Shown in pieces: positions 2,749-58,669 of a stretch of 64,000 nucleotides of DNA. The stretch spans positions 67,468,336 through 67,532,335 of the forward strand of contig NC_081183.1 in the NCBI RefSeq assembly GCF_029867415.1. The letters run 5' to 3'. The DNA comes from Vicia villosa (taxonomy: Eukaryota > Streptophyta > Magnoliopsida > Fabales > Fabaceae). Every line of letters begins with the position of its first letter. The first letter of the stretch is position 1. The position numbers were made by a program, and so were the translations under genes. The notes below the pieces were generated by a model. That model made no database searches. It was not told the origin of the DNA and saw only the letters and a program-made list of their open reading frames with translations.

Positions 2749-4718
2749 TGTAACACCCCTCTAATAACCCACGACAATTAAACAATTAATAAATCAGAGT
2801 AAGCATGCAAGAGGTGTCACAATTCATAAAATGAAGAAAACACACGTCGGTACATGTCATGCATTCACTGAAAACAACTGAAATTATAACTCATTAATAA
2901 AATCATGTTTTACACAGCGGAATCAAACACACAGAGTCAACATTCATCATTAATGTATCCGACTCAACCAACAAAACCAATTAGAGTTATAATCAAACTC
3001 AAAACAAACGTGTTCCCAGTGTTACATCTATCAGAGCATGACACCGACACAATACTAAAAACCGACTTTTGAGCTAATCCTCACCAAGTCACGCCGCTAT
3101 CCTCAATCTGAAAAATGATAACAAGTAAGGGTGAGTCTCATCACAATTAACCAATGTTATTGCATCATAAATAATAATATTTCATAGTTATATCATTCAC
3201 CCAATTGTTTCATATTCAGACAAATCATCATTCACACAACCACAGATACACAGACAGTCATCATATAACATATATCATCATGTTATAAACAAATCATGCA
3301 CATGTATGAAACTGACACTATGCATGTGGTACCAAATCATCACCAGTGGAAATCATCCACCGACCGATCTATCATCATCCAGATACGGCCCTGCCAGCAC
3401 AAATTCCACACAATGGGAATTCTGCCATTCACTGAAATCCTCTCATCATCTAGGATTCAGTCCTCATCAATGTTTATGAATGCATGTAGCATATATATAA
3501 CATACTTTCATCATCATACTATGAGTAGCATCATCTATACTCATTTCATCATCATCATCATCATTATTAAGCATGTTCATATATACATTCACATCATTCA
3601 AATACAATCAACATATCAGTAAACCACAGATCGCATCACAAGGTTTACCTATTCTCAAACAGCACACAAAACAGGCCTACAGATCGAAAGTTACACATCA
3701 TTGGACTTTCCAGAAAAATCACAAAACAGAAATTTGCACACACAGTGTCCATACGCGTATCTTCAAGCCCATACGCATCCACACGCGTACCACTATGTCC
3801 CATACACGTATCATACGCATTTCAACAAGATCAGATTTTGCCTAAAAGCAATCTCATATGCGTACCAGTCTTGCCATACGCATATCACCAGAATAATTTT
3901 CCTCTTTCAAAACTTCCATACGCGTATGAGCATCCTCATACGCTCCTCCTACGCAAAACACCAGTACTAGGTATCTGGGACAGGGCACCTGCGTATCATA
4001 CGCGTATAGCCCCTTGGGAGTGTCCCTCATACGCGTATGACCTCATCCCATACGCGTATGGCACTGTTTCATACGCAAAACACCAGAAAAATTGCCCAGA
4101 ACCTACAGCTTCGTAACAGTCCAAAACCCATTCGTTTTTACTCATACAAATCTTTGATTTTGAGTCTAAAAACCAGAAAAATTCACATCTAAACAGCATA
4201 CGAATTCATCCACAACCACAGTATATGATTTTATAATCAATTTCATTCATCATACCCTAAATCTATTAGTTATTAGGGATTCACAGTCCAAATTTCAATG
4301 ATGAACACATACACAATTTCAGAATATAGAATCAATGGATCCAACCATACTCCTAATCCATACTATCACCTATAATACGATAAAAGAGATTAAATGGAGA
4401 GTCTCCCCTTACCTCAGATAAAATCTTGGTTCTTGGTCTCTCCCTCTACAGTTCTCCTTCACGTTCCTTGTTCCCACTTCTGTTCTTTCACGTTCTTTCT
4501 TTTCTTTGTTTCCCAATTCCCAATTATTTTATGAAAAATAATAATATTGAGATTAGTGAAAGCTTTACTAAATTACACCCCCATCTTTACTATTTCCTCA
4601 TATGGCCCAAATGCCTTAAACCATTATTTATTCATTATTTCCTCAAAATCCCTAATAATTCTAATTATTAATTAAATATTCCAATTTAAATTAATAATAA
4701 AATTATACGGGTGTTACA
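2749..4718 (-). repeat. Tekay 3' LTR (left copy)
   Basis: The copy is 1970 bp, with ends TGTAACACCC...GGGTGTTACA forming a short terminal inverted repeat. It pairs with 9229-11193. It contains a block rich in CATACGCGTATG-like palindromes (3749-4077) and an AT-rich end. The small ORFs in it, rich in His, Thr and Ile, reflect CATCAT/ACA simple sequence and are not genes. Confidence 0.93.
3749..4077. repeat. Cluster of CATACGCGTATG palindromes in the Tekay LTR
   Basis: About fifteen full or decayed copies of the palindrome CATACGCGTATG lie within 330 bp. Variants such as CATACACGTAT and CATATGCGTAC differ by CG to CA or TG, as expected from CpG deamination. The core ACGCGT fits the plant CGCG-box consensus bound by CAMTA factors; that link is inference. 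The same block in the other LTR (10223-10552) keeps more intact copies. Confidence 0.8.
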
Positions 4719-9228: not shown

Positions 9229-11193
9229 TGTAACACCCCTCTAATAACCCGCGGCAATTAAACAATTAATAAATCAGAGTAAGCATGCAAGAGGTGTCAC
9301 AATTCATAAAATGAAGAAAACACACGTCGGTACATGTCATGCATTCACTGAAAACAACTGAAATTATAACTCATTAATAAAATCATGTTTTACACAGCGG
9401 AATCAAACACACAGAGTCAACATTCATCATTAATGTATCCGACTCAACCAACAAAACCAATTAGAGTTATAATCAAACTCAAAACAAACGTGTTCCCAGT
9501 GTTACATCTATCAGAGCATGACACCGACACAATACTAAAAACCGACTTATGAGCTAATCCTCACCAAGTCACGCCGCTATCCTCAATCTGAAAAATGACA
9601 ACAAGTAAGGGTGAGTCTCATCACAGTTAACCAATGTTATTGAATCATAAATAATAACATTTCATAGTTATATCATTCACCCAATTGTTTCATATTCAGA
9701 CAAATCACCATTCACACAACCACAGATACACAGACAGTCATCATATAACATATATCATCATGTTATAAACAAATCATGCACATGTATGAAACTGACACTA
9801 TGCATGTGGTACCAAATCATCACCAGTGGAAATCATCCACCGACCGATCTATCATCATCCAGATATGGCCCTGCCAGCACAAATTCCACACAATGGGAAT
9901 TCTGCCATTCACTGAAATCCTCTCATCATCTAGGATTCAGTCCTCATCAATGTTTATGAATGCATGTAACATATATATAACATACTTTCGTCATCATACT
10001 ATGAGTAGCATCATCTATACTCATTTCATCATCATCATTATTAAGCATGTTCATATATACATTCACATCATTCAAATACAATCAACATATCAGTAAACCA
10101 CAGATCGCATCACAAGGTTTACCTATTCTCAAACAGCACACAAAACAGGCCTACAGATCGAAAGTTACACATCATTGGACTTTCCAGAAAAATCACAAAA
10201 CAGAAATTTGCACACACAACGTCCATACGCGTATCTTCAAGCCCATACGCATCCACACGCGTACCACTATGTCCCATACGCGTATCATATGCATTTCAAC
10301 AGGATCAGATTTTGCCTTAAAGCAATCTCATACGCGTACAAGTCCTGCCATACGCGTATCACCAGAATAATTTTCCTCTTTCAAAACTTCCATACGCGTA
10401 TGAGCATCCTCATACGCTCCTCATACGCAAAACACCAGTACTAGGTATTTGGGACAGGGCACCTGCGTATCATACGCGTATAGCCCCTTGGGAGTGTCCC
10501 TCATACGCGTATGACCTCATCCCATACGCGTATGGCACTGTTTCATATGCGAAACACCAGAAAAAATTGCCCAGAACCTGCAGCTTCGTAATAGTCCAAA
10601 ACCCATTCGTTTTTACTCATACCAATCCACGATTTTGAGTCTAAAAACCAAAAAAATTCACATCTAAACAGCATACGAATTCATCTACAACCACAGTATA
10701 TGATTCTATAATCATATTCATTCATCATACCCTAAATCTATCAGTTATTAGGGATTCACAGTCCAAATTTCAATGATGAACACATACACAATTTCAGAAT
10801 ATAGAATCAATGGATCCAACCATACTCCTAAACCATACTATCACCTATAATACAATAAAAGAGATTAAATGGAGAGTCTCCCCTTACCTCAGATAAAATC
10901 TTGGTTCTTGGTCTCTCCCTCTACAGTTCTCCTTCACGTTCCTTGTTCCCACTTCTGTTCTTTCACGTTCTTTCTTTTCTTTGTTTCCCAATTCCCAATT
11001 ATTTTATGAAAAATAATAATATTGAGATTAGTGAAAGCTTTACTAAATTACACCCCCATCTTTACTATTTCCTCATATGGCCCAAATGCCTTAAACCATT
11101 ATTTATTCATTATTTCCTCAAAATCCCTAATAATTCTAATTATTAATTAAATATTCCAATTTAAATTAATAATAAAACTATACGGGTGTTACA
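9229..11193 (-). repeat. Tekay 5' LTR (right copy)
   Basis: 1965 bp, the partner of 2749-4718. It differs by scattered substitutions and small indels, for example a shorter CATCAT run near 10030. It contains the same ACGCGT palindrome block at 10223-10552. The LTR ends at the CA of 11192-11193, followed by the second TATGG. Confidence 0.93.
10223..10552. repeat. Cluster of CATACGCGTATG palindromes, second LTR copy
   Basis: The block matches 3749-4077. Several palindromes that are decayed on the left (CATACACGTAT, CATATGCGTAC) read CATACGCGTAT or CATACGCGTAC here, while one or two are decayed here and intact on the left. Confidence 0.8.
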
Positions 11194-13671: not shown

Positions 13672-13930
13672 GTAATTTCCATTCTTAGTTTTTGCTTTTC
13701 TTTATGTTTTCCAGTTTTAATTTATGTACTTTAATAAACAATAAACTTTAAAGTCGTGTGTCTTGCCCAGGGCACAACGGTCCTTTTTGTTAGGGCTTGT
13801 CATTTCATAAGCATATTTTCATTCAATAAAAGCATTGGACGTTTCTTATTCAAATTGTGTGTTGCTTTTTATTTTTCTTTACTTTTCTATAGCTATGTGT
13901 TCTTACACACACCCACATAATACACTGCAG
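13672..13930 (+). other. Ogre-A intron between protease and reverse transcriptase
   Basis: 259 bp, GT...AG. The donor GA/GTAATT overlaps the gag-pro stop codon, and the acceptor is TACACTGCAG/A. Removing it deletes the TAA and joins the frames as ...Q-E-S-I-S-T-L-D-P. Ogre-B gives the same solution with its own bases (25050-25319). A pro/RT intron is a published property of Ogre elements; these exact borders are my reading. Confidence 0.8.
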
Positions 13931-14738
13931 ATCCATATCCACTCTGGATCCTATTGATAACGACTCTGCTATTGCTAAATATGACTTTGAAAATCCGATC
14001 TATCAAGCTGAGGATGAAGGTGAGGAAGATTGTGAAGTGCCTAGAGAACTTGCCAGATTGTTAGAGCAAGAAGAAAAGACTATACAGCCGCATGAAGAGC
14101 CAATCGAGATTGTGAACATAGGTACTGACGAAGAAAAGAAAGAAATCAAGATAGGGGCTGAACTAGAAGATGTTGTCAAATATAGATTAATTCAGATGTT
14201 ACGAGACAATGTTGAGATATTTGCTAGGTCCTACGAAGATATGCCCGGACTCGATACTGATATTGTGGTTCACCGTCTACCTATCAAAGAAAAACGTCCT
14301 CTGGTTAAACAGAAGTTACGAAGAAGCAGACCTGACATGGCTCAGAAGATCAAAGAGGAGGTTGAGAAACAGTTCAACGCCGGTTTCCTGAAAGTTATGA
14401 GTTATCCATCATGGATCGCCAACATAGTACCGGTACCTAAGAAAGACGAAAAGGTCAGAATGTGTGTAGACTACAGAGACTTGAATCGAGCAAGTCCCAA
14501 AGATTTTTTCCCGCTACCACATATTGATATCCTATTTGACAGTACTGCACAATGCAAAGTGTTTTCCTTCATGGATGGGTTCTCAGGTTATAATCAGATC
14601 AAGATGGCACCCGAAGATATGGAAAAAACAACCTTTACTACTCCTTGGGGCACCATCTGTTACAAGGTCATGCCATTTGGGTTGAAGAACGCAGGGGCAA
14701 CGTATCAGCGTGCAATGGGAGCCTTGTTCCATGATATG
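13931..14738 (+). CDS. pol: Ogre-A reverse transcriptase, N-terminal part (split by Ogre-B)
   Basis: Open frame from the intron acceptor. After an acidic linker (PRELARLLEQEE) come the RT fingers and palm: VRMCVDYRDLNRASP, FSFMDGFSGYNQIKMAPEDMEKT and FGLKNAGATYQRAM. It ends at FHDM where the Ogre-B LTR begins (14739). The catalytic YVDD lies in the continuation at about 52912. The residues after FHDM in the local frame belong to the Ogre-B LTR. Confidence 0.9.
14734..14738 (+). repeat. Target-site duplication ATATG of Ogre-B
   Basis: ATATG at 14734-14738 is repeated at 52883-52887, bounding a 38-kb insertion. The RT frame resumes in phase at 52888. Confidence 0.93.
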
Positions 14739-14810
14739 TGTTATCCTCGGTTTTTTTTGTGGGATGCAAACTGACTCTTCTTTTATTTATTTTTTAGTTG
14801 TGAAAATCAG

Positions 14811-14820
14811 AGAGTCGCCA
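14811..14820 (-). other. PBS-like sequence inside the Ogre-B LTR
   Basis: TGGCGACTCT on the minus strand equals the first ten bases of the true PBS (48188-48205). It is present in both LTR copies (48282-48291). An 11-base match occurs in the Ogre-type LTR at 63746-63756. Confidence 0.6.
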
Positions 14821-14906
14821 CCGACTTTTATTTTATCCAATTAAGGAAAGGTTTATAAAAGAAACAGAAAAAGACCTTAAAGAGATTTTAGGTTCGGGGG
14901 TAGGTT

Positions 14907-14954
14907 ATACAAAGGGAAGGTGTTAGCACCCTTTGTATCCATGGTTATCCATGG
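14907..14954 (-). other. Twin conserved hairpins in the Ogre-B 3' LTR
   Basis: Hairpin B has arms ATACAAAGGG (14907-14916) and CCCTTTGTAT (14929-14938), with loop AAGGTGTTAGCA. Directly abutting is hairpin A, with arms CCATGG at 14939-14944 and 14949-14954 and loop TTAT. The same two structures with different stem bases occur at 55728-55776 and 63854-63901. See the first finding for the covariation. Confidence 0.8.
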
Positions 14955-17827
14955 GCTCTTAATTGCTTAGCTCACTTGTTTGAATCGTTTGTCTTGCTTT
15001 GAAATGCTTGTATGTGGTTTTAAATATTTTTGTAAAGAATTAACTTTGTAATGATCCTTGTGCGGATGTATACAAAGTGTTTATCTTTCGAAAGATATTT
15101 TGATGGTTCGAAAAAAAGATTTTTAACTTCGTAATGATCCTTGTTTGGATATATACAAAGTGTTGTCTTTTTGAAAGTTTGTTTTGAAAAAATAGTGATG
15201 TGTAAGAACTTCTGTTGTTTTTGATTGAGCAAGCAATTAGGAGGCATACCCTAAGTTCATAAGGTTCTTTCCCATTTCTTTTAGAAAATTTTCTTTGACT
15301 GGATACAGAAAGAAATTTGAATTGTATTTGAACAGTAGAATTGATTTTTGAAAAGAGTAACAGAGGGATTACCCTAAGAGGTGCAAGTGTGATTGTGATT
15401 TATTTTCAGATATGTTATCTTGAGATTAGTGATCTAGCGCTTCAGTTTTATTCTTGTCATACACGCAGTTTTATATGTACAGGAATTAAAGTGCGGGAAT
15501 GTAAAATGCGGAAAGTAAATCTACGTTATTACATCGATTGTGCGAGAAATGTAAACTACGCTATTTGCATGAATTTGACAACCTATACACTTATCTATGA
15601 ATTTAAATTGCAATAAGATAAAGGGAAAATATTTTTTGGATTTTTGGATGGTTGATTTTAATTAAAATTAATTAATTTAATTAAAAGGTTAAGAATTAGA
15701 AATAAAATTTAAACCTAAAAAATTAAGTCTAAAATATATCCAAATTGTTTGTTAATTAATTTTAAAATAAAATTAATTTTTTTGTGATTTTTGAAATTGT
15801 TTTTAAGATTATTAAGTTAATTAACATATAATTATACAAATAATTATACACATAAATTAAACTTAAAGAGAAAAATATTCTAAATATGTGCAAAATTAGT
15901 ATATAATATATAAACTTAATTTAATGAAAAAAAATATTTTTTTCTGATTTTTTTTTATAGGTTAGGAATAATTAAAAGATAAATGTATAATATTATCTAA
16001 TTAATTAAACAAAATATTTTAAATATTAAGAAAAATAAAATATTTTTGTGTCAAAAATTAAGACAATATTTTATCAACCTAAAATATTTTTTTGCATATT
16101 TTTCTGATTTATTAAACTATTTTTAAATAATTTTGCAAAAGAAAATTAAACAAAATAGAAAATATATTAAATTTGGATCAAGTGTGGTAGACTGGAGAGT
16201 CTATGGTATGGAAGGCGTGATCAGATGCGTTAGATCTTGAATTAATGAGATCTGAGGGCTTCAAATGATAGGGTGCATCCTAAGTGTGTGGGATTAAAAC
16301 ATTGGATCTATCAGTTTAAAAACATTTCACGTGGGACCCAGAATTTAAATCAGAGCCAATCAGAGCTCTTCCCTCCGCCACGCAAGCCTTGACCTAGTCA
16401 AGGAAAGTCAGCGACGCCGGAGTCAAACCTCCGGTCGTCTTCTCCGGCGACCTCAGCCCTCCACCTGCAAAAATAAGGACAATAAACATTCAAAAGGGAC
16501 CCTACCCCCCTAATTCGAGGGCTGCGATTCCATTGGTGATGGTTTTGTGGCCTGAAAGTTCCTGGTTCATGAGACTCGAAGAAGATTTTGAACACACGGT
16601 TAGCAATGACAACCTAGGTTATGGACGTTAGAGCTCTCATGCTAGGGTTCAAACCTGACCTAATGATCATTATAAACTCAACCATAACCGTTAGACATGA
16701 TAACAATGCATAAATGAAGAGTTTGAATTCAATGGAAATTTACCAAACCGGAGAGTGGTGGAACTCGAGTTTCAGGTCCTTATGAACTTGGCTATTGATC
16801 CAAACTTACTCAAACAAGTCCCAGGAGATGATTTATGGACTTGGTTTGCTTTGAAACTAGCTGCAAAATCAAACACGAAAATTAAAGTTTCTTGTAAAAA
16901 ATTTTAGTTTTGTGAAGTTTGTGAGCTATTCTTTGTGAACTATTTCGTGTGTCCTTTGTTGCTGAAGTGTTCATGTCATTTATAAGCAATATGAGTGCTG
17001 AAATCTTAAGCTACCAAGCTCTTGAGTGTCTTTGAACTTTTGATTTTTTTAATAATAAAAGCTTTGAATTTCTTGGCCATGGCTTCAATTTTCTTCACCC
17101 CTCTTGCCATAGGTCTTCTGTACCTCTATGCTGCAGAACTTGGATCAAACTTGGTGACTCAAGCTAAGGACAAAAGCCTTGAATCATTATCTTGAACCAT
17201 TTCTTTTTTAATTTAACTTTAAATGAAATAAAATTAAATTAAAAAAGAAATAAAAATGTCATGGGCCTAATGTTGGTCGTGGGAGCCCTTTAACATCATT
17301 AGAAACATGTTTGGATCATGAATGCTTGGCCTCTTTTGGAAAAAAAAAAACAATTTTGATCAATGCTAGTTTCATGCATTTTCCCAAAAAATAGCCAACT
17401 TCAACAAGGCATAATTCCTTCAATTTTGATCATATGAAGGAGTTCTAGTACTTTTTAGAAACCTCAAGATGTCCTCTACAAGCTACGTTGTAAAATTTTT
17501 TGCATTTGGAGAAGTTATCTTGATGTTATGGGCTTTGACAAAAAACTGCTTTTTGTTGACTTTGAAAATGACATGTAATGTCTTAGCTCATATTTTCCAA
17601 ATGGTAAATCCAATGACCATGGGACCAATTTCATTGGAAAGATAATTGAATTTCCTTCAAAATAATCTTTGGTTGGAATTTTTCGGATGAACGAGGAGAG
17701 AGTTATGGCCGGTCAAAGTTCAGCTGACTTTTTAGGAGAAAACCCTAATTTTAAAACTTAGAGTTTTGTCGATTTCTGAACTTTTCTTGATGAATTATGA
17801 TCAACCATTGATCAAATGATGAATATT

Positions 17828-17918
17828 TTGACAAAATATGGATATTGACAAAAAAAATCATTTTTGACTGTCTGTTGACTTTTCGGTCAAACTGGTCGTC
17901 TATTGACTGTTTGAGCTG
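17828..17918. promoter_or_regulatory. TTGAC (W-box-like) cluster in the Ogre-B LTR
   Basis: At least five TTGAC/GTCAA cores lie in about 90 bp, including TTGACT and the close pair TTGACTTTTCGGTCAA. WRKY factors bind TTGAC(C/T) elements. A similar cluster lies in the Ogre-C LTR near 59523-59600. Function is not shown. Confidence 0.4.
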
Positions 17919-18612
17919 CTGACTGTGCGTCCTAGCGAATCAAAGTTTGAAAATTTGTCTAATGGTACTTTGAGACATATGGAGATCCATGAAATCCATT
18001 TGAGGTCTCAAAAAACTTGTTCTTCTGAAAAAAAACAAAAACCCTAGTTAGGGACTGTTTGTGTAGGAGACAGTTAAGCGTACCTGATTTTTGTGCAGTG
18101 TTGAGTCTCTGCTGATCATGTGATTATCAGAAGACTTCTAGAACAAAAATCTTGGAATTTTGAAATGCAAAAGATTGATTTGACTGATGGTACAAACACG
18201 GAGAATCGTGCTGTCAGCGAGTTTGACTGTTAACTAGCTGTCGGGGTATTAACGTAACAGTTAAAGTGAAAACTTAACAGTTAAAGTTAATTTTTTATCC
18301 TTTTGTTTTTGTTGTGTTAATGGTGAAAATTTATTTACATGATTTTTTAGAAAAACAAAAACATAATAAATAAATAAAATATACTGTACGCGAACGAAAT
18401 TACTGATAATAATCTTGAGAAGGATTTAATGCACAGAAAAATAAATATTTACATAGCAATAAACACACATAATATTATCTTACTAATTAAACGACGGTAC
18501 AACAGATAGTACAATATTTAATACTGACAGTACAAATATTACATAATATAACGAACAGTACGACAAATATAATGAACGGTACATTATTTGAAAGCGAAAG
18601 ATACGACAAACT

Positions 18613-18780
18613 TTAAGTATGACGATTAAAAACCCATGCTATAAACAACAATATATAGATGTACGGGAGTGCAAGCATCCCAGGTCCGCATTTTTCAGGA
18701 CTATGCAGACAGAAAAAGGACATGATCACCACAAAAACAGTGATGACCATAAGAAAAAACGTATCCATCCACTTTGCCAT
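18613..18780 (-). CDS. Small ORF in the Ogre-B LTR, predicted two-span membrane peptide (left copy)
   Basis: 55 codons from ATG 18780 to TAA 18613-18615. The context is good for plant initiation (AAAATGG), about 100 nt downstream of a TATA box at 18878-18885 on the same strand. The peptide starts MAKWMDTFFLMVITVFVVIM, has a hydrophobic span at residues 7-25, a short polar loop with CLHSPEKCGPG, and a second hydrophobic span (YIYILLFIAWVF) near the C-terminus. The other LTR copy (52082-52249) differs by one residue (Ala to Ser). I do not recognise the family. It could be a real LTR-encoded or captured peptide, or chance. Confidence 0.45.
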   Translation of the reverse strand: MAKWMDTFFLMVITVFVVIMSFFCLHSPEKCGPGMLALPYIYILLFIAWVFNRHT

Positions 18781-18877
18781 TTTTGCCGGGGAAGAAGAGA
18801 AAATAATTATGAGATAGTATGATAGAAAATAATTATGAGTGAAATTTGATGTGAGAATTTATGGAAAAAATGAGGAG

Positions 18878-18885
18878 TATATATA
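18878..18885 (-). promoter_or_regulatory. TATA box in the Ogre-B LTR
   Basis: TATATATA in a GC-flanked context (CTCTATATATACTCC on the minus strand), about 530 bp from the U3 end. The right-LTR equivalent is 52349-52356. If used, R would begin near 18850 and the leader of the full RNA would be over 4 kb. Confidence 0.5.
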
Positions 18886-19411
18886 GAGTGAAAAGAAGGA
18901 TGGAGACGTTGGGGAATGAAGTGATACCGTACAAAAAAGGAAAGTTTGAGTGGTAGTAGGATTTGAAAGAAAGTGTATGGAATAAAGTTAGGATTTGATT
19001 TGAAAGAAAGAGATTTGAAAAGAAAGGAAAAGATTTGAAAACAATAATATAGTACAAAAATTAGTGGGAAACAAAACCAATAATAATTTAATTGTTACCA
19101 GTACAGTCTGAATCCCTGGACTCTTGCGCCTGCAAAATTTTGATTCTGTACCAATTCCGTCAGTATCATTTATCTAAAAATAAATCTCAAATAAATAGTG
19201 TATGAAGTGATAAACAGTATCTGGCGTTTGTGTAAGAATAAATTCAACAGCGAACCAAAATACCGTACAAAAACATTCTAAAAGCTGAGTATTCATAAAA
19301 TCAGAATATTTACGAAATAAAATCCAAGATTCTATAAAACTCCTAATTTTTAGACAGAAGTCTGTTGCCTTCTCTTTGAAAAAAGATGCGGGCAAATTTT
19401 GGGGTATAATA

Positions 19412-19432: not shown

Positions 19433-21577
19433 TAAACCTGAAGAGACCGATTCGAATCTGAAGGTAGAAGATGATTGAATATTTAGATGCCCTGAAAATT
19501 TGCACTTACCTTCACCAGAAGTGATGCTGGAATTTGTATTGAATGTGGTTTGAGAAATATCGTTGGCGGATCAAAACATTACTTGAGATGGGCTTTCAGA
19601 TGCCATCTAGTGAATGTGTTGATGGTTTGTTCATCAGAATGAATCCATTGATTATATCTTGATGAAGGATTTGAATCTCTGTGTTGACCGTTACGGATCC
19701 GTCCGAGGTTACCGCTTTAAATATTGGAGGTTGATCGTTACGGAACTTTCCAAAGTTTTCGCTTTAGATTTTGAATGTTGATCGTTACAGAATCGTCCGA
19801 AGTTTCCGCTTTAGATCTTAAAGATTGATTGCTTTAAGGAACCGTCTGAGGTATCGACTTTGATCTGAAGGTAAATCATTAAGGAACCGTCAAGGTATCA
19901 ACTTAAATCTGAGGGTAGATCATTAAGGAACCGTCAAGGTATCTACTTAAATTTGAGGGTAGATCATTAAGGAACCGTCCAAGGTATCGACTTAGATCTG
20001 AGGGATTTGAAGTTGTTTATTTGACTGTGGTATAGCCTGGAAATGTCAGAATGAGTCACCATTAAACCGTATATGCTTTGCTTGTTTAGAGTTGATAAGT
20101 GATTTGGAAAGAGAGAGCTCTTCAGAATGAATCTTTGGTTTGATTATATCTGAGAGGAATGCTTGTCTGGACAGAACCCGGGAGAATATTGCACGTGATT
20201 GAGAATAATCTGCTGAGGATAATTCGTCCACCTGAAAAACCAAGTTAGTGACATGCAATGTCATGATGCATGTATATGTTGAGATTCTCAAACTAAATGA
20301 AAATCGTGCATGCTATGTATGCGTTTGTCATGAAAAATTATATGCTATGTATGAATATGCATATGATGTATGATGTATGGACATGACTTATGCAGTTTAG
20401 AGCGTATCAAACTTCTGGTTGGGAAAATAAATCCCTGCTTGTTATTTCAGAAACGATGATATTATGACCGTTGATGATCTTTGCTATCTTGTTCGAGTAC
20501 ACTCAGCTGGGGGAATTTCCTTACGGACCAGGATGCTCTGTTGAGGGATCTTTGACTACCGCTTGGGGATGAAGGTAATTTGAAGGTTCTGATTTTGATG
20601 CACCTTGAATGGGAATAAGAGAGATGTGTAATTCTCCGATGCACTATTTGATCAAGCCTTGATGTGGAGGATCACACCTTCTAGGGATAGTGATCTTGAA
20701 CAGCCTTGCTGGGGAACGAGGAGTAATTGTCCGATGTAATATCTTGTCCGAGCTTGAAGATAGGGCCCCTCGAATCACATTATTGGAGAGGGAAATCTCA
20801 TCGAGGATTCTGCTGAGAAATGTATCTCTGTTGGGGAGCTGTTTCTTTTGATGCCCGTACTCAGTGTCGGTGATAGAACATTCCGTCGGGGAATTAATTG
20901 GACCTTGCTTATCTGGGGATAACTCCTTGAAGATTGCACTGTGGGGGATATTCCCATGTTGCTGGTTTTGGGATGATGTCCAGATGATTGGGACATTACC
21001 CGAATGCTATTCCTGTTTTTCTTATAAACATCAATCATATTCAAATGCATATGTTCATTCAAAATTATCCTTGGGACATTTACGTATTCAAAACAGAAAA
21101 AGTGAAAACATTGATTTTGAGCATGAATTGTATTAATTTGAAAGAGATCCGTAATAGGCAGATTAGTACAAGGAGACAAAAATCCTAGTAGTAGGAATTT
21201 GTCATAAAACTTTGAAAAGTACTTATAAAGGGAAATAGCTATGTGAAAACAATCCAGTCAAGTTTCAACTCTGCTATTGCCGATCTGTCTTTGAGTATCT
21301 CATCCCTCACTTGTTGGAAGAAAAATGATTGGACTGATTGGTGCCTTTGATGTGTTGAACCTTGAAGGTGAGTAGGTGGCCAAACGGGACATAGTCGTAT
21401 GCTTTATTCCCTAACTTTTGCCTAGGCTACCTTTTCAAGTTTTCAGCCTACCGGGATAATTATTTTTTTTTTAGTCTCTAATTTTTGCCTGGATCGCCCT
21501 TTCAGGTTTTCAATCCACCGAGACGCTCATTTTTTCCTAAGTCGCCCTTTCAGGTTTTCAACTTAGCGAGCTTTTCT
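19433..21577 (-). other. Ogre-B 3' untranslated region
   Basis: Non-coding region between the pol stop and the PPT. It contains a degenerate tandem array (19686-20005), GATGCATG-like and ATGTATG simple sequence (20250-20400), and just after pol three spaced copies of a CCTTTCAGGTTTTCA-like motif (about 21430-21560). The corresponding Ogre-C region (59824-62560) keeps the same order of landmarks. Confidence 0.75.
19686..20005. repeat. Tandem array in the Ogre-B 3' region
   Basis: About seven diverged units of 45-50 bp with core AAGGAACCGTC-AGGTATCGACTT; the two left-most units instead read CGTTACGGA...CCGCTTTA. It is homologous to the longer, cleaner array of Ogre-C (60086-60830). Confidence 0.8.
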
Positions 21578-24046: not shown

Positions 24047-25049
24047 TTAAATACCCTTGTTGCTGACAATGAAACCTAAGAGTTTACCGGATCTCACCCC
24101 AAAGGTACACTTGTTCGGATTCAGTCGCAACCTGTACTTCTTGAGTCTGTCAAACAGCTTGTGCAGATGACCCAAATGTTCTTCTTCGGTGTTGGACTTT
24201 GCAATCATATCATCCACATAAACCTCTATTTCCTGATGAATAATATCATGGAACAGAGCTACCATTGCACGCTAATACGTTGCTCCTGCATTTTTTAAAC
24301 CAAAGGGCATTACTTTGTAACAAAAGGTTCCCTAGGGTGTTGTGAAGGTTGTTTTTTCCATGTCTTCGGGCGCCATCTTGATTTGATTGTAATTTGAGAA
24401 TCCATCCATAAAGGAAAATATCTTGCATTGTGCAGTATTGTCAACCAGTACATCAATGTGTGGTAAAGGGAAATCATCTTTGGGGTTTGCCCGATTCAGA
24501 TCTCTGTAGTCTACACACATTCTGACTTTCCCGTCTTTTTTAGGTACAAGCACGATGTTAGCTATCCATGGAGGATAACTTAAAACTTTTAGAAAACCGG
24601 CGTTGAATTGCTTCTCAACCTCGTCTTTAATCTTTTTGGACATGTCGGGCCTACTTCTTCGCAGCTTCTGCTTAACTGGAGTGCTTCCTTCTTTGATCGA
24701 CAAGCGATGGACCACAATATCGGTATCGAGACCAGGCATATCTTCGTAGGACCAAGCGAATATCTCGACATAGTCTTGTAACATTTGAATCAGCCTTTGC
24801 TTGACACTGTCTTCTAAATCAGCTCCTATCTTGACTTCTTTCTTTTCTTCGTCACTGCCCAGGTTGATAACCTCAATTGGCTCTTCATGCGGCTGTATAG
24901 TCCTTTCTTCTTGTTCTAATAGCCTTGCAAGTTCCCTAGGTAATTCACAATCTTCCTCACTTTCGTCCTCAGTTTGGTAGATCAGATTTTCAAAGTCATG
25001 ACTGGCAATAGCAGAATCGTTATCAACAGGATCTAGAGTGAATGTGAAT
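24047..25049 (-). pseudogene. pol: Ogre-B reverse transcriptase
   Basis: Begins at the intron acceptor (25049) with FTFTLDPVDNDSA, then a linker and RT motifs VRMCVDYRDLNRANP and FSFMDGFSNYNQIKMAPEDM. The catalytic EVYVDDMIAKS follows in the same frame after two stops at 24332-24334 and 24272-24274. A third stop at 24047-24049 closes the block. There is no frameshift. The first part (24597-25049) is also present as a detached copy at 40251-40703. Confidence 0.9.
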
Positions 25050-25319
25050 CTGCATTTATTATGTGGGTGTGTGTAAGAACACATAGCTATTTAAAAATGA
25101 ATAAAGTAAAGAAAGAAACAAAAAGGATCGCAAAATTTGAATATGCAAATGTCCCATGATTTTATTGAATGAACATATGATCATGGTATGACAAACCCTT
25201 ATAAAAAGGACCAGTGTGCTTCGGGCAAGGCACCTGGCTTTTAAGTTCACGGCTCGATAGTACAGGAACCATTTTTATTTTTGAACATATAAACAACGAA
25301 AACAGGAAATTGCATTTAC
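25050..25319 (-). other. Ogre-B intron between protease and reverse transcriptase
   Basis: 270 bp on the minus strand. The donor GA/GTAAAT overlaps the gag-pro TAA (25316-25318), and the acceptor AAATGCAG/A is at 25050. Joining gives Q-E-F-T-F-T-L-D-P in frame, parallel to Ogre-A. The interior shares blocks with the Ogre-A intron, such as GCACACTGGTCCTTTTT versus GCACAACGGTCCTTTTT. Confidence 0.8.
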
Positions 25320-25341
25320 TCCTGATCAAAGGAGATAACAT
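25320..25341 (-). CDS. gag-pro: Last codons of Ogre-B gag-pro (separated by SIRE)
   Basis: Reads GAA GAT GTT ATC TCC TTT GAT CAG, matching the EDIV..SQE end of Ogre-A. SIRE is inserted just upstream, so the rest of this gene lies at 42225-45973. Confidence 0.8.
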
Positions 25342-25346
25342 CTTCT
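25342..25346 (-). repeat. Target-site duplication CTTCT of SIRE
   Basis: CTTCT occurs at 25342-25346 and 42220-42224. A third copy at 40996-41000 belongs to the anomalous internal duplication of the flank. Confidence 0.9.
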
Positions 25347-25560
25347 TGAAGGATAGAAAAACACTTAGAAAGGGGGGGGGGGGGGTTGAATAAGTGTAGT
25401 CTAAAAACTTGGACGATAAAAATAAATTTGCACAGTTATTTTTATCCTGGTTCGTTGTTAACTAAACTACTCCAGTCCACCCCCACGGAGTGATTTACCT
25501 CACCTGAGGATTTAATCCACTAATCGCAACAGATTACAATGGTTTTCCACTTAGCCCACG

Positions 25561-25735
25561 ACTAAGTCTTCTAGAGTATCCTGATCACAACCTGATCACT
25601 CTAGGAACAAATGCTTAGACACAAGCTAAGACTTTCTTAGAGTATCCTGACCACCACGTGATCACTCTAATTACAACTGCTTAGACACAAGCTAAGACTT
25701 CCTAGAGTATCCTGATCAACACTTGATCACTCTAG
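25561..25735. repeat. Three tandem dyad units in the SIRE LTR
   Basis: Three units of about 60-68 bp each hold an inverted repeat of the form TAGAGTATCCTGATCA...TGATCACTCTA and a spacer GCTTAGACACAAGCTAAGAC. They are conserved in the right LTR at 41215-41390. Confidence 0.75.
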
Positions 25736-25975
25736 TTACTTACAAATTAATGTAATCAATTCTAAGAGTATTACAATTGCTTCTGAAAAGCTATAATCAC
25801 AACAGTGATATTTCTCTTAACGTTTAAGCTTAATCTCACTAATATATTACAACAGCAATGTAGTGAGCTTTGATGAAGATGAAGTTTTTGAGCTTTTAGT
25901 TGAACAGCGTTTCAGCAAGTTTATATTCACAGGAATCGTCAAGAATTGGTAAACCTTGCTTCTCATCAGAACTTC

Positions 25976-25983
25976 ATATTTAT
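25976..25983 (-). promoter_or_regulatory. TATA box of the SIRE LTR (left copy)
   Basis: TATAAATA in GCCTATAAATATGAAG on the minus strand, about 590 bp from the U3 end. The copy in the functional 5' LTR is at 41625-41632 (GCCTATAAATACGAAG). Confidence 0.65.
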
Positions 25984-26572
25984 AGGCACTTGAGAAGATG
26001 ACCGTTGGGAGCATTTAATGCTTTGTGTATTCCGTACAGCATTGCATTTAATGTTTCACGCTTTTGTCAACTACCTCGAGCCTTGTTCATGCTGTGTCTA
26101 CTGACGTTGCCTTTAATAGCTTCCAACGTTCCTTTTGTCAGTCAGCGTAGCCTGCCACCTGTACTTTCTTCTGATCTGATGTTTGTGTATACAACGTTTG
26201 AATATCACCAGAGTCAAACAGCTTGGTGCAAAGCATCTTCTTGTCTTCTGACCTTGAAGTGCTTCTGAGCGTGATACCATGAGAACTTCAGTGCTTCTGC
26301 TTCTGATCTCAAGTTCTTCTGATGCTTCCATAGACCCATGTTCTGATTCTGCCTTGACCATCATCTGATGTCTTGCCAGACCATGTTCTGATGTTGCATG
26401 CTGAACCTTCTGAGTCAAAGCTTCTGAGCGCTGATTTGTGCATACTCTTTATATATATTTCCTGAAAAAGGAAATTGTAATGTATTAGAGTACCACATTA
26501 TCTCACACAAAATTCATATCCTTGTTATCATGAAAATTAAGAATATTGATCAGAACAAATCTTGTTCTAACA

Positions 26573-32304: not shown

Positions 32305-33078
32305 TGAAATTCTGGTAAGACAGACTCAGAATGTCATACACAATGTCACGACATCTTTTCTGTCATCAGCTTAGCTGAGGCAGTACATACAGATCCCCCA
32401 ATTTTTTTACTTCTAACATCCAGAAGTCTGGAAGTGTTGGGATCACATATCAGTTCAGTTAACATAACCAAATCTGCTTTGCAGAGATTCTGTGTTAGCA
32501 CAGTCATTAAATCACACACTGATGTCAGGCACGATGTTATGACATCCAAACTGAACTTACAAATAAACAATGCAGAAACATAAACAACACAACAGAATTG
32601 TTAACCCAGTTCGGTTCAATCAACCTACTCTGGGGGCATACCAAGCCAGGGATGAAGTCCACTATTAGCAGTATCAATTCAGAGCTAAACTCCCAGTTTA
32701 CAACTCCTCACTTAATCACTACCCAATGACCCCTCTACCTAGGTTCTCCCTAGATATGGAATATCTCCATTCCACTCCCAATCATACCAATGATGTCTAG
32801 CAGTCAACACCTCAGCCACTGCATCGACAGCTTAATTACCAACATTCAAAGCACACAAATAAACATATCTTAGAGTTGCTTCAAAGCTTCCTCCAAGCAC
32901 ACAACTCCACTCATTGCTTTACACTTTTGAGTGAATAAAACAAACCTCTTACCTACAGGCTTCGAGGCACAAATCAGTGACCTTCCCACAAACTGGGAGG
33001 TTCACTTACACGGCTAACCCTAAAAACTACATCTTGTCAATACTTGGCTAGCTTCCTAAACTAGGTTACAAAGTTTCC

Positions 33079-33086
33079 TATTTATA
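33079..33086 (-). promoter_or_regulatory. TATA box of the LARD LTR (left copy)
   Basis: TATAAATA in GGTTATAAATAGGAAAC on the minus strand, about 760 bp from the U3 end. The copy in the 5' LTR is at 37557-37564. Confidence 0.7.
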
Positions 33087-33740
33087 ACCTATTCCCAACT
33101 GGACTTGGGCTTACAATCGCAGCATTATTTGCTGTTACAAATCACAGAATTCTTCTGCTACAAACAAGGTCTTCAATCATAAGTTTCCTAATTTATCTTC
33201 ATAATTGGAAACTGCATAATTCTCCAATATTCTAATCTTGATTCTCTTGACCTTTAAACCCGCCACATAGGATTGCATAATATTCCAAAGAATATTCTGC
33301 ATCTTTTGAGTACTTACTGAATCTTTATATTCCAGCTCAGCAGGCGCGTGACAGCTAAATATAACAGTAACTGCTGTCAAATACTGATGTCACAGAGCAT
33401 GTCGTGACATTCCATGTTCTGCATAAATCACAGCAAACAGTATTCTTCACTTCAATTCTCAGCTTCTCACATATCAGGGTGCCAAAAAGACAGCCCATGA
33501 TTTGTTCTATTACTGATGTACAATCAGCACAATCTTTAGTTTCCCAAAATAAAGACTGAGATAAATAAGGAAACATAATAGAAATAGAATAGAAAATGTA
33601 GCAGCTGCTGCTGTCAAACACTGATGTCATGACGTCGAGCATGACATCCAACTCACAGCATGTATTAGCTTACACAACCAAAACCTGCATAACCTTTAAC
33701 ACTACACACCACATGTCATGACCTTAGTCAAGACAACAGA

Positions 33741-33846
33741 ATACACATGAATGTTTTACCACAAAATGCAGCCAATCAAAACATCTATAATCTCCCCATA
33801 CACATGAATGTTTTACCACAAAATGCAGCCAATCAAAACATCTACA
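33741..33846. repeat. 57-bp duplication at the U3 end of the LARD LTR, including a PPT copy
   Basis: Unit 1 (33741-33797) ends with ATCTATAATCTCCCC. Unit 2 (33798-33846) ends with the LTR terminus ATCTACA and is followed outside the LTR by ATCTCCCC. So unit 1 contains an internal copy of the LTR end plus the PPT. The right LTR has the same arrangement (38219-38324). Confidence 0.85.
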
Positions 33847-36782: not shown

Positions 36783-38324
36783 TGAAATTCTGGTAAGACA
36801 GACTCAGAATGTTATACACAATGTCACGACATCTTTTCTGTCATCAGCTTAGCTGAGGCAGTACATACAGATCCCCCAATTTTTTTACTTCTAACATCCA
36901 GAAGTCTGGAAGTGTTGGGATCACATATCAGTTCAGTTAACATAACCAAATCTGCTTTGCAGAGATTCTGTGTTAGCACAGTCATTAAATCACACACTGA
37001 TGTCAGGCACGATGTTATGACATCCAAACTGAACTTACAAATAAACAATGCAGAAACATAAACAACACAACAGAATTGTTAACCCAGTTCGGTTCAATCA
37101 ACCTACTCTGGGGGCATACCAAGCCAGGGATGAAGTCCACTATTAGCAGTATCAATTCAGAGCTAAACTCCCAGTTTACAACTCCTCACTTAATCACTAC
37201 CCAATGACCCCTCTACCTAGGTTCTCCCTAGATATGGAATATCTCCATTCCACTCCCAATCATACCAATGATGTCTAGCAGTCAACACCTCAGCCACTGC
37301 ATCGACGGCTTAATTACCAACATTCAAAGCACACAAATAAACATATCTTAGAGTTGCTTCAAAGCTTCCTCCAAGCACACAACTCCACTCATTGCTTTAC
37401 ACTTTTGAGTGAATAAAACAATCCTCTTACCTACAGGCTTCGAGGCACAAATCAGTGACCTTCCCACAAACCGGGAGGTTCACTTACACGGCTAACCCTA
37501 AAAACTACATCTTGTCAATACTTGGCTAGCTTCCTAAACTAGGTTACAAAGTTTCCTATTTATAACCTATTCCCAACTGGACTTGGGCTTACAATCGCAG
37601 CATTATTTGCTGTTACAAATCACAGAATTCTTCTGCTACAAACAAGGTCTTCAATCATAAGTTTCCTAATTTATCTTCATAATTGGAAACTGCATAATTC
37701 TCCAATATTCTAATCTTGATTCTCTTGACCTTTAAACCTGCCACATAGGATTGCATAATATTCCAAAGAATATTCTGCATCTTTTGAGTACTTACTGAAT
37801 CTTTATATTCCAGCTCAGCAGGCGCGTGACAGCTAAATATAACAGTAACTGCTGTCAAATACTGATGTCACAGAGCATGTCGTGACATTCCATGTTCTGC
37901 ATAAATCACAGCAAACAGTATTCTTCACTTCAATTCTCAGCTTCTCACATATCAGGGTGCCAAAAAGACAGCCCATGATTTGTTCTATTACTGATGTACA
38001 ATCAGCACAATCTTTAGTTTCCCAAAATAAAGACTGAGATAAATAAGGAAACATAATAGAAATAGAATAGAAAATGTAGCAGCTGCTGCTGTCAAACACT
38101 GATGTCATGACGTCGAGCATGACATCCAACTCACAGCATGTATTAGCTTACACAACCAAAACCTGCATAACCTTTAACACTACACACCACATGTCATGAC
38201 CTTAGTCAAGACAACAGAATACACATGAATGTTTTACCACAAAATGCAGCCAATCAAAACATCTACAATCTCCCCATACACATGAATGTTTTACCACAAA
38301 ATGCAGCCAATCAAAACATCTACA
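36783..38324 (-). repeat. LARD 5' LTR (right copy)
   Basis: 1542 bp, the partner of 32305-33846, nearly identical. Its last bases create the spurious end (CRCFDWLHFVVKHSCV twice) of the adjacent gag reading frame. Confidence 0.93.
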
Positions 38325-40066: not shown

Positions 40067-40250
40067 TGAAGGATAGAAAAACACTTAGAAAGGGGGGGTT
40101 TGAATAAGTGTAGTCTAAAAACTTGGACGATAAAAATAAATTTGCACAGTTATTTTTATCCTGGTTCGTTGTTAACTAAACTACTCCAGTCCACCCCCAC
40201 GGAGTGATTTACCTCACCTGAGGATTTAATCCACTAATCGCAACAGATTA
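40067..40250 (-). repeat. Truncated SIRE LTR (first 184 bp)
   Basis: Matches the first part of the full LTR (41001 onward) up to CAACAGATTA, then changes abruptly to Ogre-B RT sequence. This is the LTR edge next to the PBS, so the true 5' LTR has been broken here. Confidence 0.9.
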
Positions 40251-41000
40251 CCGGCGTTGAATTGCTTCTCAACCTCGTCTTTAATCTTTTTGGACATGTC
40301 GGGCCTACTTCTTCGCAGCTTCTGCTTAACTGGAGTGCTTCCTTCTTTGATCGACAAGCGATGGACCACAATATCGGTATCGAGACCAGGCATATCTTCG
40401 TAGGACCAAGCAAATATCTCGACACAGTCTTGTAACATTTGAATCAGCCTTTGCTTGACACTGTCTTCTAAATCAGCCCCTATCTTGACTTCTTTCTTTT
40501 CTTCGTCACTGCCCAGGTTGATAACCTCAATTGGCTCTTCATGCGGCTGTATAGTCCTTTCTTCTTGTTCTAATAGCCTTGCAAGTTCCCTAGGTACTTC
40601 ACGATCTTCCTCACTTTCGTCCTCAGTTTGGTAGATCGGATTTTCAAAGTCATGACTAGCAATAGCAGAATCGTTATCAACAGGATCTAGAGTGAATGTG
40701 AATCTGCATTTATTATGTGGGTGTGTGTAAGAACACATAGCTATTTAAAAATGAATAAAGTAAAGAAATAAACAAAAAGGATCGCAAAATTTGAATATGC
40801 AAATGTCCCATGATTTTATTGAATGAACATATGATCATGGTATGACAAACCCTTATAAAAAGGACCAGTGTGCTTCGGGCAAGGCACCTGGCTTTTATGT
40901 TCACGGTTCGATAGTACAGGAACCATTTATATTTTTGAACATATAAACAACGAAAACAGGAAATTGCATTTACTCCTGATCAAAGGAGATAACATCTTCT
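40251..41000 (-). repeat. pol: 750-bp duplicate of Ogre-B flank inside SIRE
   Basis: Corresponds base for base to 24597-25346: the end of gag-pro, the intron, and the RT N-terminus up to EKQFNAG. About a dozen substitutions separate the two copies. It ends with the CTTCT target site and then a complete SIRE LTR, exactly as the left junction does. The junction with the truncated LTR shows only AC as shared bases. Confidence 0.9.
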
Positions 41001-42219
41001 TGAAGGATAGAAAAACACTTAGAAAGGGGGGGTTTGAATAAGTGTAGTCTAAAAACTTGGACGATAAAAATAAATTTGCACAGTTATTTTTATCCTGGTT
41101 CGTTGTTAACTAAACTACTCCAGTCCACCCCCACGGAGTGATTTACCTCACCTGAGGATTTAATCCACTAATCGCAACAGATTACAATGGTTTTCCACTT
41201 AGCCCACGACTAAGTCTTCTAGAGTATCCTGATCACAACCTGATCACTCTAGGAACAAATGCTTAGACACAAGCTAAGACTTTCTTAGAGTATCCTGACC
41301 ACCACGTGATCACTCTAATTACAACTGCTTAGACACAAGCTAAGACTTCCTAGAGTATCCTGATCAACACTTAATCACTCTAGTTACTTACAAATTAATG
41401 TAATCAATTCTAAGAGTATTACAATTGCTTCTGAAAAGCTATAATCACAACAGTGATATTTCTCTTAACGTTTAAGCTTAATCTCACTAATATATTACAA
41501 CAGCAATGTAGTGAGCTTTGATGAAGATGAAGTTTCTGAGCTTTTAGTTGAACAGCGTTTCAGCAAGTTTATATTCACAGGAATCGTCAAGAATTGGTTA
41601 ACCTTGCTTCTCATCAGAACTTCGTATTTATAGGCACTTGAGAAGATGACCGTTGGGAGCATTTAATGCTTTGCGTATTCCGTACAGCATTGCATTTAAT
41701 GTTTCACGCTTTTGTCAACTACCTCGAGCCTTGTTCACGCTGTGTCTACTAACGTTGCCTTTAATAGCTTCCAACGTTCCTTTTGTCAGTCAGCGTAGCC
41801 TGCCACCTGTACTTTCTTCTGATCTGATGTTTGTGTATACAGCGTTTGAATATCATCAGAGTCAAACAGCTTGGTGCAAAGCATCTTCTTGTCTTCTGAC
41901 CTTGAAGTGCTTCTGAGCGTGATACCATGAGAACTTCAGTGCTTCTGCTTCTGATCTCAAGTTCTTCTGATGCTTCCATAGACCCATGTTCTGATTCTGC
42001 CTTGACCATCTTCTGATGTCTTGCCAGACCATGTTCTGATGTTGCATGCTGAACCTTCTGAGTCAAAGCTTCTGAGCGCTGATTTGTGCATACTCTTTAT
42101 ATATATTTTCTGAAAAGGAAATTGCAATGTATTAGAGTACCACATTATCTCACACAAAATTCATATCCTTGTTATCATCAAAACTAAGAATATTGATCAG
42201 AACAAATCTTGTTCTAACA
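41001..42219 (-). repeat. SIRE 5' LTR, complete (right copy)
   Basis: 1219 bp with seven G where the left LTR has fourteen. TATA box at 41625-41632. It is followed by CTTCT and the Ogre-B gag-pro. It is not adjacent to its PBS because of the intervening truncated LTR and Ogre-B segment. Confidence 0.92.
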
Positions 42220-43734: not shown

Positions 43735-45798
43735 TTAGACTGGCAACACAATTTTTTCAAATTGGTCGACTGAAATCTCCTGTGGTACATGTGCATCTTT
43801 CAAGAATTTCATCAGGGCCTTGGCATGAGCTTCTGAATACTTTAACAGAGATAAAATTGAAATTTTTGAAGCAGTGTGCCCCAGTTGTTCGACAATATTG
43901 TAATCACTTTTGCTGATGATTTTCAATATTTCCTCCATTTCTTGCCTCGAAGGATCTTCAATAGTGACTTCAACAGGTACTTGAACTGGTTCAACTAGTG
44001 GCTCTTTACCTCGAGCATTGACATTTTGATTAGGAACCGGGACCTGGACTGGAGTAGTAGTAACATTTGGAGAAATTTCTGGCGAAAAGATCCTTCCACT
44101 TCTTGTAATCTTACTAGTTCCCACAATATTATCAACAGCTGGATTAGTAAAATTTACGGCCTCTTTAGTCAAGGTGTCTTGTTTAACTCCATGGACATAA
44201 ACATTAGCGCCATAACTCCACGGGACAGCTTTGTCTAAGGAATATGGAAATGGAGCCGGATTGATGATGATTACAGATGCCACTCTGGGTGCAGCAGAAA
44301 TTTTGAAGGGAGCCTTGGTAGGGATTTTCAATGGTATGTTAGAAACCACTGAGACGTCCTCTATCTTCATCCCATTTGAAAAAACTTCGCACAAATTGTC
44401 TATAGAAGGAAGTTTCTCAAACATAATGATACGACGATCCATCAACTTTTGAATTCCTCTTTTCAGATTTTCACAACCATTGGGTAGGTGTGCACAATAA
44501 AAGCAATCAGGGTCACAACCTGGAAATAAACCAGCTTGTATTAGCTTTCTTTTGACTTCAAGGATTGGCGTTGACAGTTCTCTCACATCATAGATATAAA
44601 CAGTGTCCATGATAGCATTAACGGTCTTGTCATGTTTTGGCATAGGCGCAGTGATGACATTTGGAGTCTCTAGAGGATGGAATTCAATTTCCCCAGCATC
44701 TATCATGTCTTGGATTTTATTTTTCAGGACCCAACAGTGATCTGCGTCATGTCCAGGACAATTGGAGTGGTATGCACATGTTGCGTCGGGGCGATAACTA
44801 GGAGAGGAAGTGTTGACATTCTTTGGAGGATCTTTCAATGTAATCAGATTTGTTTTTAACAAGTGCTGCAATGTTTGAGAGATCGGCATGTTGATTTTGG
44901 TGAAGTTTCTTCTCTGTGCATCTGGTCGACGCGTATATTTCGGCGGTTGATCTTTTTGAGGTGCAGATGCAGAGATCAGAACAGCCCCTACAGATTGGTG
45001 ATGCTCACTTTTGCGACCTTTCTGACTGTGCACTGTATTGACTTCATTTCTCCCACTGATGGGCCTCTTTGTAGTACCAGAGGAGGAGCCTACTTGAATT
45101 TTTCCACTTTGAATGCCACTTTCGACACGCTCTCCAGTTAATATCAGGTCAGTGAAACCTGACGACGAGCTTCCCAGCAAATGACTGTAGAAAGGGCCAG
45201 TTAAAGTGCCCATGAACATGTTGACCAGCTCGCGATTAGATAAGGGAGGTTGAACCCTTCCAGCTAGCTCTCTCCACTTTTGTGCATACTCTTTGAAACT
45301 TTCTTTTGGTGCCATGGTCATGCCCCGTAGTTGAGTACGGGTTGGTGCAAGGTTAGCGTTGTATTGATACTGTTTGTAGAAAGCAGCAGCCAGATCTTCC
45401 CAGGTATGAACTTTTGTACTTTCCAGTTGGTAGTACCACTCGAGTTGAGTACCCGACAGACTTTCTTGGAAGAAATGAATCCACAACTTTTTATCTGCTG
45501 TATGAGGTTGTATCTTTCTCACATAGGACCTTAGATGCAGCTTTGGGCAAGAGACTCCATCATACTTTGCAAAGACAGGAACTTTGAACTTTGGAGGTAT
45601 AACAACATATGAGACTAGCCCAAGATCGTTGAAGTCTAAACCAAGTATTTTCTGTATCTCCATAGCTTTCATGCATTCTTCCAACTGCTGGTATTTGCTA
45701 TCACCCTGTTTGTCTTCGGAATGATAATCTTCTTCGTCAGGAGAGAGAGAGTTTGGCAGAACCCTGGTTGCTGTGATTGTCTTCTTGATCACCTTCAC
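43735..45798 (-). pseudogene. gag: Ogre-B gag
   Basis: 687 open codons with the gag core LWIHFFQESLSGTQLEWYYQ, the linker SSGTTKRPISGRN, the variant knuckle CAYHSNCPGHDADHC (CX2HX5HX4C), the second Cys cluster CDPDCFYCAHLPNGC, and a C-terminal segment leading to the protease. The frame is lost at 43752-43757, where a run of six A appears to have gained two bases relative to Ogre-A. The N-terminus is in another frame (45737-45973). Confidence 0.9.
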
Positions 45799-45973
45799 CG
45801 ACTTCTTCAGGGATTGGCGCTTTTCTGGGCATCCTGGCTGGGACTCTGACTTTCCTCACGAGGTGGCTTAAACCTACAGATCCCTTGGACTTCTTTTTCT
45901 TCTTGGTCATCAGGGCTATCTGAACTTGGACGTTTTGTGCCTCGATATTCTTGATGCTTATTTCGGAATCCAT
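45737..45973 (-). pseudogene. gag: Ogre-B gag N-terminus
   Basis: ATG 45973, ten bases after the acceptor-like CTGTTTATTTCAG. Reads MDSEISIKNIEAQNVQVQIA, a short coiled-coil start, then a Lys-rich basic segment. It runs out of frame around 45745-45800, where the main gag block takes over; a small indel is implied. Corresponds to 2037-2260 of Ogre-A. Confidence 0.85.

Positions 45974-58563: not shown

Positions 58564-58669
<106 letters not shown>

Follow-up and report, generated by a model that had tools for sequence, protein, structure and literature searches.

Host elements in the 64-kb window

The window, the whole 64,000-nucleotide stretch of Vicia villosa DNA analysed here, contains one minus-strand Ogre-type element (element A, 14739–52882) that is stretched over about 38 kb by nested insertions. 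Its 3′ LTR (14739–19409, minus strand) was delimited by LTR alignment and the flanking ATATG, and its 5′ LTR (48210–52882, minus strand) by the same evidence and by reading; positions 14740–19409 and 48211–52880 are 98.35% identical, and the ATATG copies at 14734–14738 and 52883–52887 form a 5-bp target duplication around the element. Element A is inserted into the reverse-transcriptase (RT) gene of a related plus-strand element (13893–14738, resuming at 52883), which has RVT_1 before the insertion and RNase H, RVT_3 and integrase after it.

In the sense direction element A has a primer-binding site (PBS; 48205–48188), a DUF7745 ORF, gag, protease, RT, RNase H and integrase. An extra ORF upstream of gag is a mark of the Ogre lineage, and element A carries one in the form of the DUF7745 ORF (47054–47605, minus strand; E 5.4e-39), with gag at 43738–45855; its gene order and 4.67-kb LTR presumably place it in that lineage. 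The 18-nt PBS, found by reading, adjoins the 5′ LTR on the minus strand (48188–48205), with the model match described below starting 226 nt away from it, and may fit tRNA-Arg, as the PBS of the Ogre lineage does. An additional RNase H domain is described as a mark of the Tat clade in the available text of PMC6317226. The related plus-strand element has RVT_3 after RT_RNaseH (53765–54226); for element A, no RVT_3 was seen among the nine ORFs scanned. A 1.97-kb stretch including RT sequence is present twice in element A, at 24596–26572 and 40250–42219, with 98.3% identity.

Two further LTR families, divergent in sequence and in the same orientation as element A, lie to its right. In family B (55563–61382, minus strand) the two ends were placed by eye, provisionally on the right, where a polypurine-like run was the guide; family C is represented by the 3′ part of an LTR (63721–64000, minus strand; end read by eye) that runs off the window. 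Within the family B LTR, a long self-complementary run at 58566–58666, a TA-type microsatellite by its matches, floods inverted-repeat scans, and a head-to-tail repeat array at 60031–60871 is related to 19682–20056.

Twin hairpins in LTRs of three families

On the element-sense (minus) strand, four LTR copies from these three families have a 6-bp hairpin (hairpin A, 4-nt loop) that is followed directly by a 10-bp one (hairpin B, 12–13-nt loop). In the 3′ LTR of element A, hairpin B occupies 14907–14938 (10-bp stem, 12-nt loop) and hairpin A 14939–14954 (6-bp stem, 4-nt loop); the corresponding positions in the 5′ LTR are 48378–48409, with one broken pair, and 48410–48425. Hairpins B and A are located at 55728–55760 (10-bp stem, 13-nt loop) and 55761–55776 in family B, and at 63854–63885 (three G-U pairs on the sense strand) and 63886–63901 in family C.

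The arms and loops quoted in the initial annotation for 14907–14954, 55728–55776, 63854–63901 and 48378–48425 read back as given, including the hairpin A arms CCATGG/CCATGG, CTGTGG/CCACAG and CCATCG/CGATGG. The 130–170 nt that it placed between the structure and the LTR 3′ end agree with the distances for hairpin B of 168 (14907), 168 (48378), 165 (55728) and 133 (63854) bases, and its remark that the non-Watson-Crick pairs of family C are G-U pairs only on the minus strand holds, with 16 of 16 positions paired there and three of them wobbles.

When each copy was folded alone as sense RNA, both hairpins formed the minimum-energy structure in three of the four copies (z -4.1, -3.5 and -2.5); the copy at 48.4 kb, with its broken pair, has a different minimum-energy fold. 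Antisense folding was nearly as good as sense folding for the first two families but not for the third, as expected if the three wobbles of family C pair on the minus strand only. A core pattern with up to three mismatches gave three matches in the window, missing family B, and a mean of 0.00 in 100 shuffles. A bare twin-stem descriptor that allows G-U pairs is not rare, being present in 37 of 60 shuffled windows, and the evidence therefore lies in position and covariation rather than in the stems alone. A covariance model built from the four window copies recovered all four at E 1.1e-30 or lower and had no further match in the window below E 0.05; this includes two other pairs of LTR-like direct repeats, one (2749–4718 with 9229–11193) flanking a gypsy polyprotein with a zinc knuckle and RVP_2, and the other at 32305–33846 with 36783–38324. 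Directly 3′ of hairpin B, many copies have a second conserved block, ACnCCCGnACC or similar, for example at 14891–14906 on the minus strand.

Copies across the Vicia villosa genome

The 2.03-Gb genome was sampled in twenty 10-kb stretches (200 kb) at round coordinates on contigs C1–C4. Only these stretches are unselected; 50 further loci and another 18 were chosen by core pattern, and all aligned copies come from this one genome. Model R1 (E below 1e-5) found 12 copies in the 200 kb, and model R2 found the identical 12 and none further; these are among the 37 rows of R2 and score 54.5 bits or more. Scaling from 200 kb suggests that the genome-wide total is in the region of 100,000 copies, give or take a wide margin. 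Three exact core patterns, which are mutually exclusive in that no site can match two, gave 13,743, 22,602 and 2,599 matches genome-wide, or 38,944 together, and their reversed controls gave 0 each.

A third LTR class was recognised in 31 of the 33 loci L087–L119 (all but L089 and L090). These loci, which score 37.9–53.2 bits, retain hairpin B and its loop type on different arms, and in place of hairpin A they have a different small stem or an unclear one. Hairpin B is the core of the structure, and hairpin A varies more.

Compensatory change in both stems

The four window copies have 98.4% of 64 cells paired and a double change in 8 of 16 pairs. None of 500 shuffles reached this paired share or this double-change count, and 125 of 500 reached the count of further pair types; sliding the partners lowered pairing to 44–59%. 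In pairwise simulations, all pairs were kept in 72,692 of 400,000 runs from family A to family B, 1,202 of 400,000 from A to C and 314 of 400,000 from B to C. The first of these comparisons is weak because transitions leave G-U pairs, and the other two are stronger.

Larger alignments gave the same picture of stems that differ in their letters and keep their pairing, as had been claimed from the window. The 37 copies (36 distinct rows) have 95.4% of 548 cells paired and 102 double-change cells, and the 87 copies (72 distinct rows) have 94.8% of 1,075 cells paired and 271 double-change cells. Covariation and strand counts use the 72 distinct rows, and loop, PBS and third-class counts use all 87 copies. 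The covariation score of the 72 rows is 0.585, a value that none of 500 shuffles (mean 0.217) attained, and it falls to 0.067–0.131 when partners are slid; of five measures, the number of double-change pairs was reached by 4 of 500 shuffles, the number of further pair types by 19 of 500, and the rest by none. Individual pairs of hairpin B take up to six pair types among these rows.

We also scored column pairs with an R-scape-like script (not R-scape itself) that uses a G-test with average-product correction. Its null preserves the tree, each branch's substitutions being moved to other columns with the same base, and comprised 200 null alignments. The 37-copy, 34-row (37 rows minus two fragments and one identical row) and 72-row alignments were fitted to the structure, whereas a MAFFT alignment of 35 rows (37 minus the two fragments; 236 columns, 27,261 column pairs) was blind to it. 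In this structure-blind alignment the best four of the 27,261 column pairs all fall in the stems, two per hairpin (51–58 and 49–60 in hairpin A, 64–94 and 69–89 in hairpin B); family-wise p values of the top four are 0/200, 0.005, 0.02 and 0.105, and the best pair outside the stems has 0.81. The best four pairs are again stem pairs in the fitted 34-row alignment and in the fitted 72-row alignment, where the family-wise p is 0/200 for two of them and 0.075 and 0.1 for the others, and where 8 of the 16 pairs fall under an E of 0.05 (16 tests). Thus in this genome the two adjacent stems are kept by compensatory change. The broad alignment, covariation test and covariance-model search for which the initial annotation had called were all passed within the one genome.

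Strand preference of the hairpins

Hairpin B has 73 G-U and 3 A-C combinations in the sense orientation among 720 cells (72 rows). With both hairpins included the counts are 81 and 11, which leaves 8 of each for hairpin A; such cells count sequences rather than events, and as distinct arm states the two hairpins have 46 G-U against 11 A-C. When folded in about 400 nt of context, hairpin B has a mean pair probability of 0.83 in the sense and 0.50 in the antisense direction, and of the 35 copies 30 exceed 0.5 as sense RNA and 19 as antisense RNA; hairpin A has 0.67 and 0.70 respectively. The excess of G-U over A-C in hairpin B indicates that selection sees the sense-strand RNA. Hairpin A is supported by covariation, without a strand bias.

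Two explanations would dispense with a selected RNA. The arms could form a DNA-level dyad, either a palindromic protein-binding site or a cruciform in the LTR, in line with the palindromic repeated motifs reported upstream of the TATA box in Sirevirus LTRs (PMC2829016, available text) and with the equal G-U and A-C counts of hairpin A. The two DNA strands are equal, however, and the lopsided count in hairpin B disfavours a dyad there, so that we regard this as very unlikely. Pairing could also arise as a mutational artefact if RT template switching recopied one arm into the other, a process generally known to be able to perfect short inverted repeats; yet it predicts perfect arms rather than strand-biased G-U pairs, and it gives no account of why the loop and the GGG/CCC helix that closes it hardly vary and recur at a similar place. 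We give this the least credence of the explanations considered. A conserved, covarying, element-sense RNA structure near the PBS in three LTR families, as initially annotated, is borne out by covariation and by the G-U bias of hairpin B, and within this genome we consider the reading as a functional RNA close to settled.

Loop conservation and alternative pairing

The loop of hairpin B is conserved, in agreement with the initial annotation: one 13-nt form accounts for 50 of the 87 copies and a 12-nt form for 13. It is closed by a nearly invariant GGG/CCC helix, whose three G-C pairs are retained in 72, 70 and 71 of the 72 rows. Within the same region, GGUG and CACC are complementary at all four positions in 83 of the 87 copies. 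Pairing between them could give an alternative state in competition with the upper part of the stem, of the kind seen in the predicted minimum-energy fold of the 48.4-kb copy; since GGUG/CACC hardly varies, covariation is no proof of it.

Possible poly(A) signal, PBS echo and probable R region

A possible poly(A) signal, AATAAA, lies downstream of the hairpins at 14827–14832, 48298–48303 and 55638–55643 on the minus strand; family C is without an exact one. In 24 of the 37 copies AATAAA is positioned 122–157 nt from the match start, or about 67–102 nt after hairpin B, and it is found anywhere downstream in 22 of the 50 further loci. In this usual place it is outside both stems in the 24 copies, in contrast to a retroviral poly(A) hairpin, which holds AAUAAA inside.

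Close by, further towards the LTR end, is a short motif that echoes the PBS, at 14812–14822, 48283–48293 and 63748–63758 on the minus strand, with a kept part at 55626–55633 in family B. AATAAA and a GGTGGCGA-type motif are both present in 16 of the 37 copies, AATAAA standing 10 nt ahead of the motif in 13, with a spacing of 11 nt in one and other values in two. The echo motif TGGCGACT is present in 48 of the 50 further loci, 11 of which have a PBS within reach. Across all copies a PBS was found downstream in 16 of 87, and in 15 of these 16 an echo that shares 9–11 nt with the start of the PBS lies 37–86 nt before it. The echo is conserved amid LTR sequence that otherwise aligns poorly, and in the third class the PBS, where found, is 42–57 nt after the echo.

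TATA boxes upstream of the hairpins have no fixed place and give no start for R. Because a poly(A) signal follows the hairpins in many copies, we infer that they probably lie in R, with the R end near the echo. Hairpins in R would be carried both in the 5′ leader and at the 3′ end of the RNA.

Proposed role of the hairpins

On sequence grounds we propose, at roughly even odds (a probability of about 0.5), that the twin hairpins are a cis-acting handle on the genomic RNA of Ogre-type (Tat clade) elements, acting in packaging or in the start of reverse transcription. The stems would display the loop, UGC(C)UAACACCUU, for binding by a protein of the element, either Gag nucleocapsid or RT. Protein bound to the loop would mark the RNA for packaging, and the bound handle would mark the start of reverse transcription at the PBS, about 90–170 nt downstream. 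We favour this because selection has preserved almost every letter of the loop and of the pairs that close it but only the shape of the stems, and because the location is that of a leader preceding the PBS; the distance from the hairpins to the LTR end and to the PBS is similar from copy to copy.

The best rival is that hairpins located in R ahead of AAUAAA control 3′-end formation or minus-strand transfer, by silencing the 5′ poly(A) site, exposing the 3′ one or guiding jumps between R copies. The position of AATAAA after hairpin B and its usual 10-nt spacing from the echo-type motif speak for such a role, as do the conserved R stem-loops reported in the available text on retroviral LTRs (PMC3601003). 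However, AATAAA is missing from many copies, including most of the third class, in spite of a kept hairpin B; where it is in its usual place it is outside the hairpins, and simple occlusion needs no nearly invariant loop. We therefore consider control of 3′ ends or transfer possible but doubtful. Considerably less probable is the kissing-loop dimerisation signal that the initial annotation saw in a near-palindromic loop core, although loops in family C and a few other copies are self-complementary, Ty3 is reported to dimerise in vitro through a 5′ palindrome (PMC11381356) and Ty1 through kissing loops (PMC5454406), both in the available text. A palindrome of at least 6 nt in the open loop is present in only 7 of the 87 copies and absent from the commonest loop (50 of 87), and kissing-loop dimerisation is thus not general; the GGUG/CACC complement could instead serve an inner hairpin.

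A broader form of the proposed handle would have the twin hairpins, the poly(A) signal and the PBS echo act together as a single module, in which the tRNA bound at the PBS pairs with the 3′ echo and circularises the genome. With the module in R at both RNA ends, the echo would lie beside the poly(A) tail, the hairpins would be the protein-bound anchor, and the circularised genome would serve the first strand transfer. We think this unlikely; if true, it would to our knowledge give plant LTR retrotransposons their first RNA module supported by covariation.

Relation to known structures

We place the hairpins with the cis-acting RNA structures of LTR retroelements, a class already known. Among the nearest known structures are the leader hairpins of retroviral R/U5 (TAR, the poly(A) hairpin and the packaging stem-loops), which lie in or near R, before the PBS, in genomic RNA, as the present ones probably do. 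In the available text, stem-loops are associated with the conservation of the longer R regions of retroviruses (PMC3601003), and TAR is described at both RNA ends, with its opening affecting dimerisation and packaging (PMC3432602). The present hairpins differ from these in sequence, in having AAUAAA outside the hairpins and in their plant Tat-clade hosts; the available text of the LTR survey (PMC3601003) gives 0 matches for 'ogre' and 'athila'. Ty3 belongs to the same superfamily as Ogre, and the part of its PBS at the other RNA end could correspond to the echo (PMC11381356, available text), although the echo described here repeats the PBS start itself and, in contrast to the Ty3 dimerisation palindrome, the hairpin loop is mostly not palindromic. 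Sireviruses, like the elements described here, are plant LTR retrotransposons with conserved inverted repeats (PMC2829016, available text), but they are Copia elements and their motifs are upstream of TATA or at the PPT rather than shortly before the LTR 3′ end. Rfam gave 0 matches at gathering score over the whole window and 0 at E up to 1 over 14700–15050. No description of the twin hairpins was found in the open-access PMC text that was searched.

Ogre elements are credited with up to 54% of a Fabeae genome (Vicia faba) and with 57% of the genome-size variation studied in Fabeae (PMC4659654, available text), and a shape that is kept while its letters change is a sign of a job in the life cycle of such very abundant elements. 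Little is known about the way in which LTR elements of plants recognise their RNA; the available text of a 2025 review of their life cycle (PMC12786077) has 8 matches for 'packaging' but does not contain 'dimeri-', 'secondary structure' or 'stem-loop'. Spanning about 50 nt, with covarying stems and a loop that hardly varies, the element described here offers a handle for tests of binding, packaging and reverse transcription, and the hairpins provide a structural profile for LTRs whose sequence aligns poorly.

Searches beyond the plant genome

Viral contigs contain 23 stretches that match the core pattern, which we rejected as the stems are absent, as judged by eye, from their printed contexts; an RT protein search of viral contigs found no relative. 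In prokaryote genomes a looser pattern gave seven sites, of which a single bacterial MAG accounts for three. These 30 core-holding viral or prokaryote loci were scored as hard negatives, and the best of them reached 21.0 bits. Spurious ORFs across the hairpins were tried as a route to other plants and dropped, one search giving 13 proteins without a named source and a second giving none; some of the 13 matched proteins extend into the frame of the PBS.
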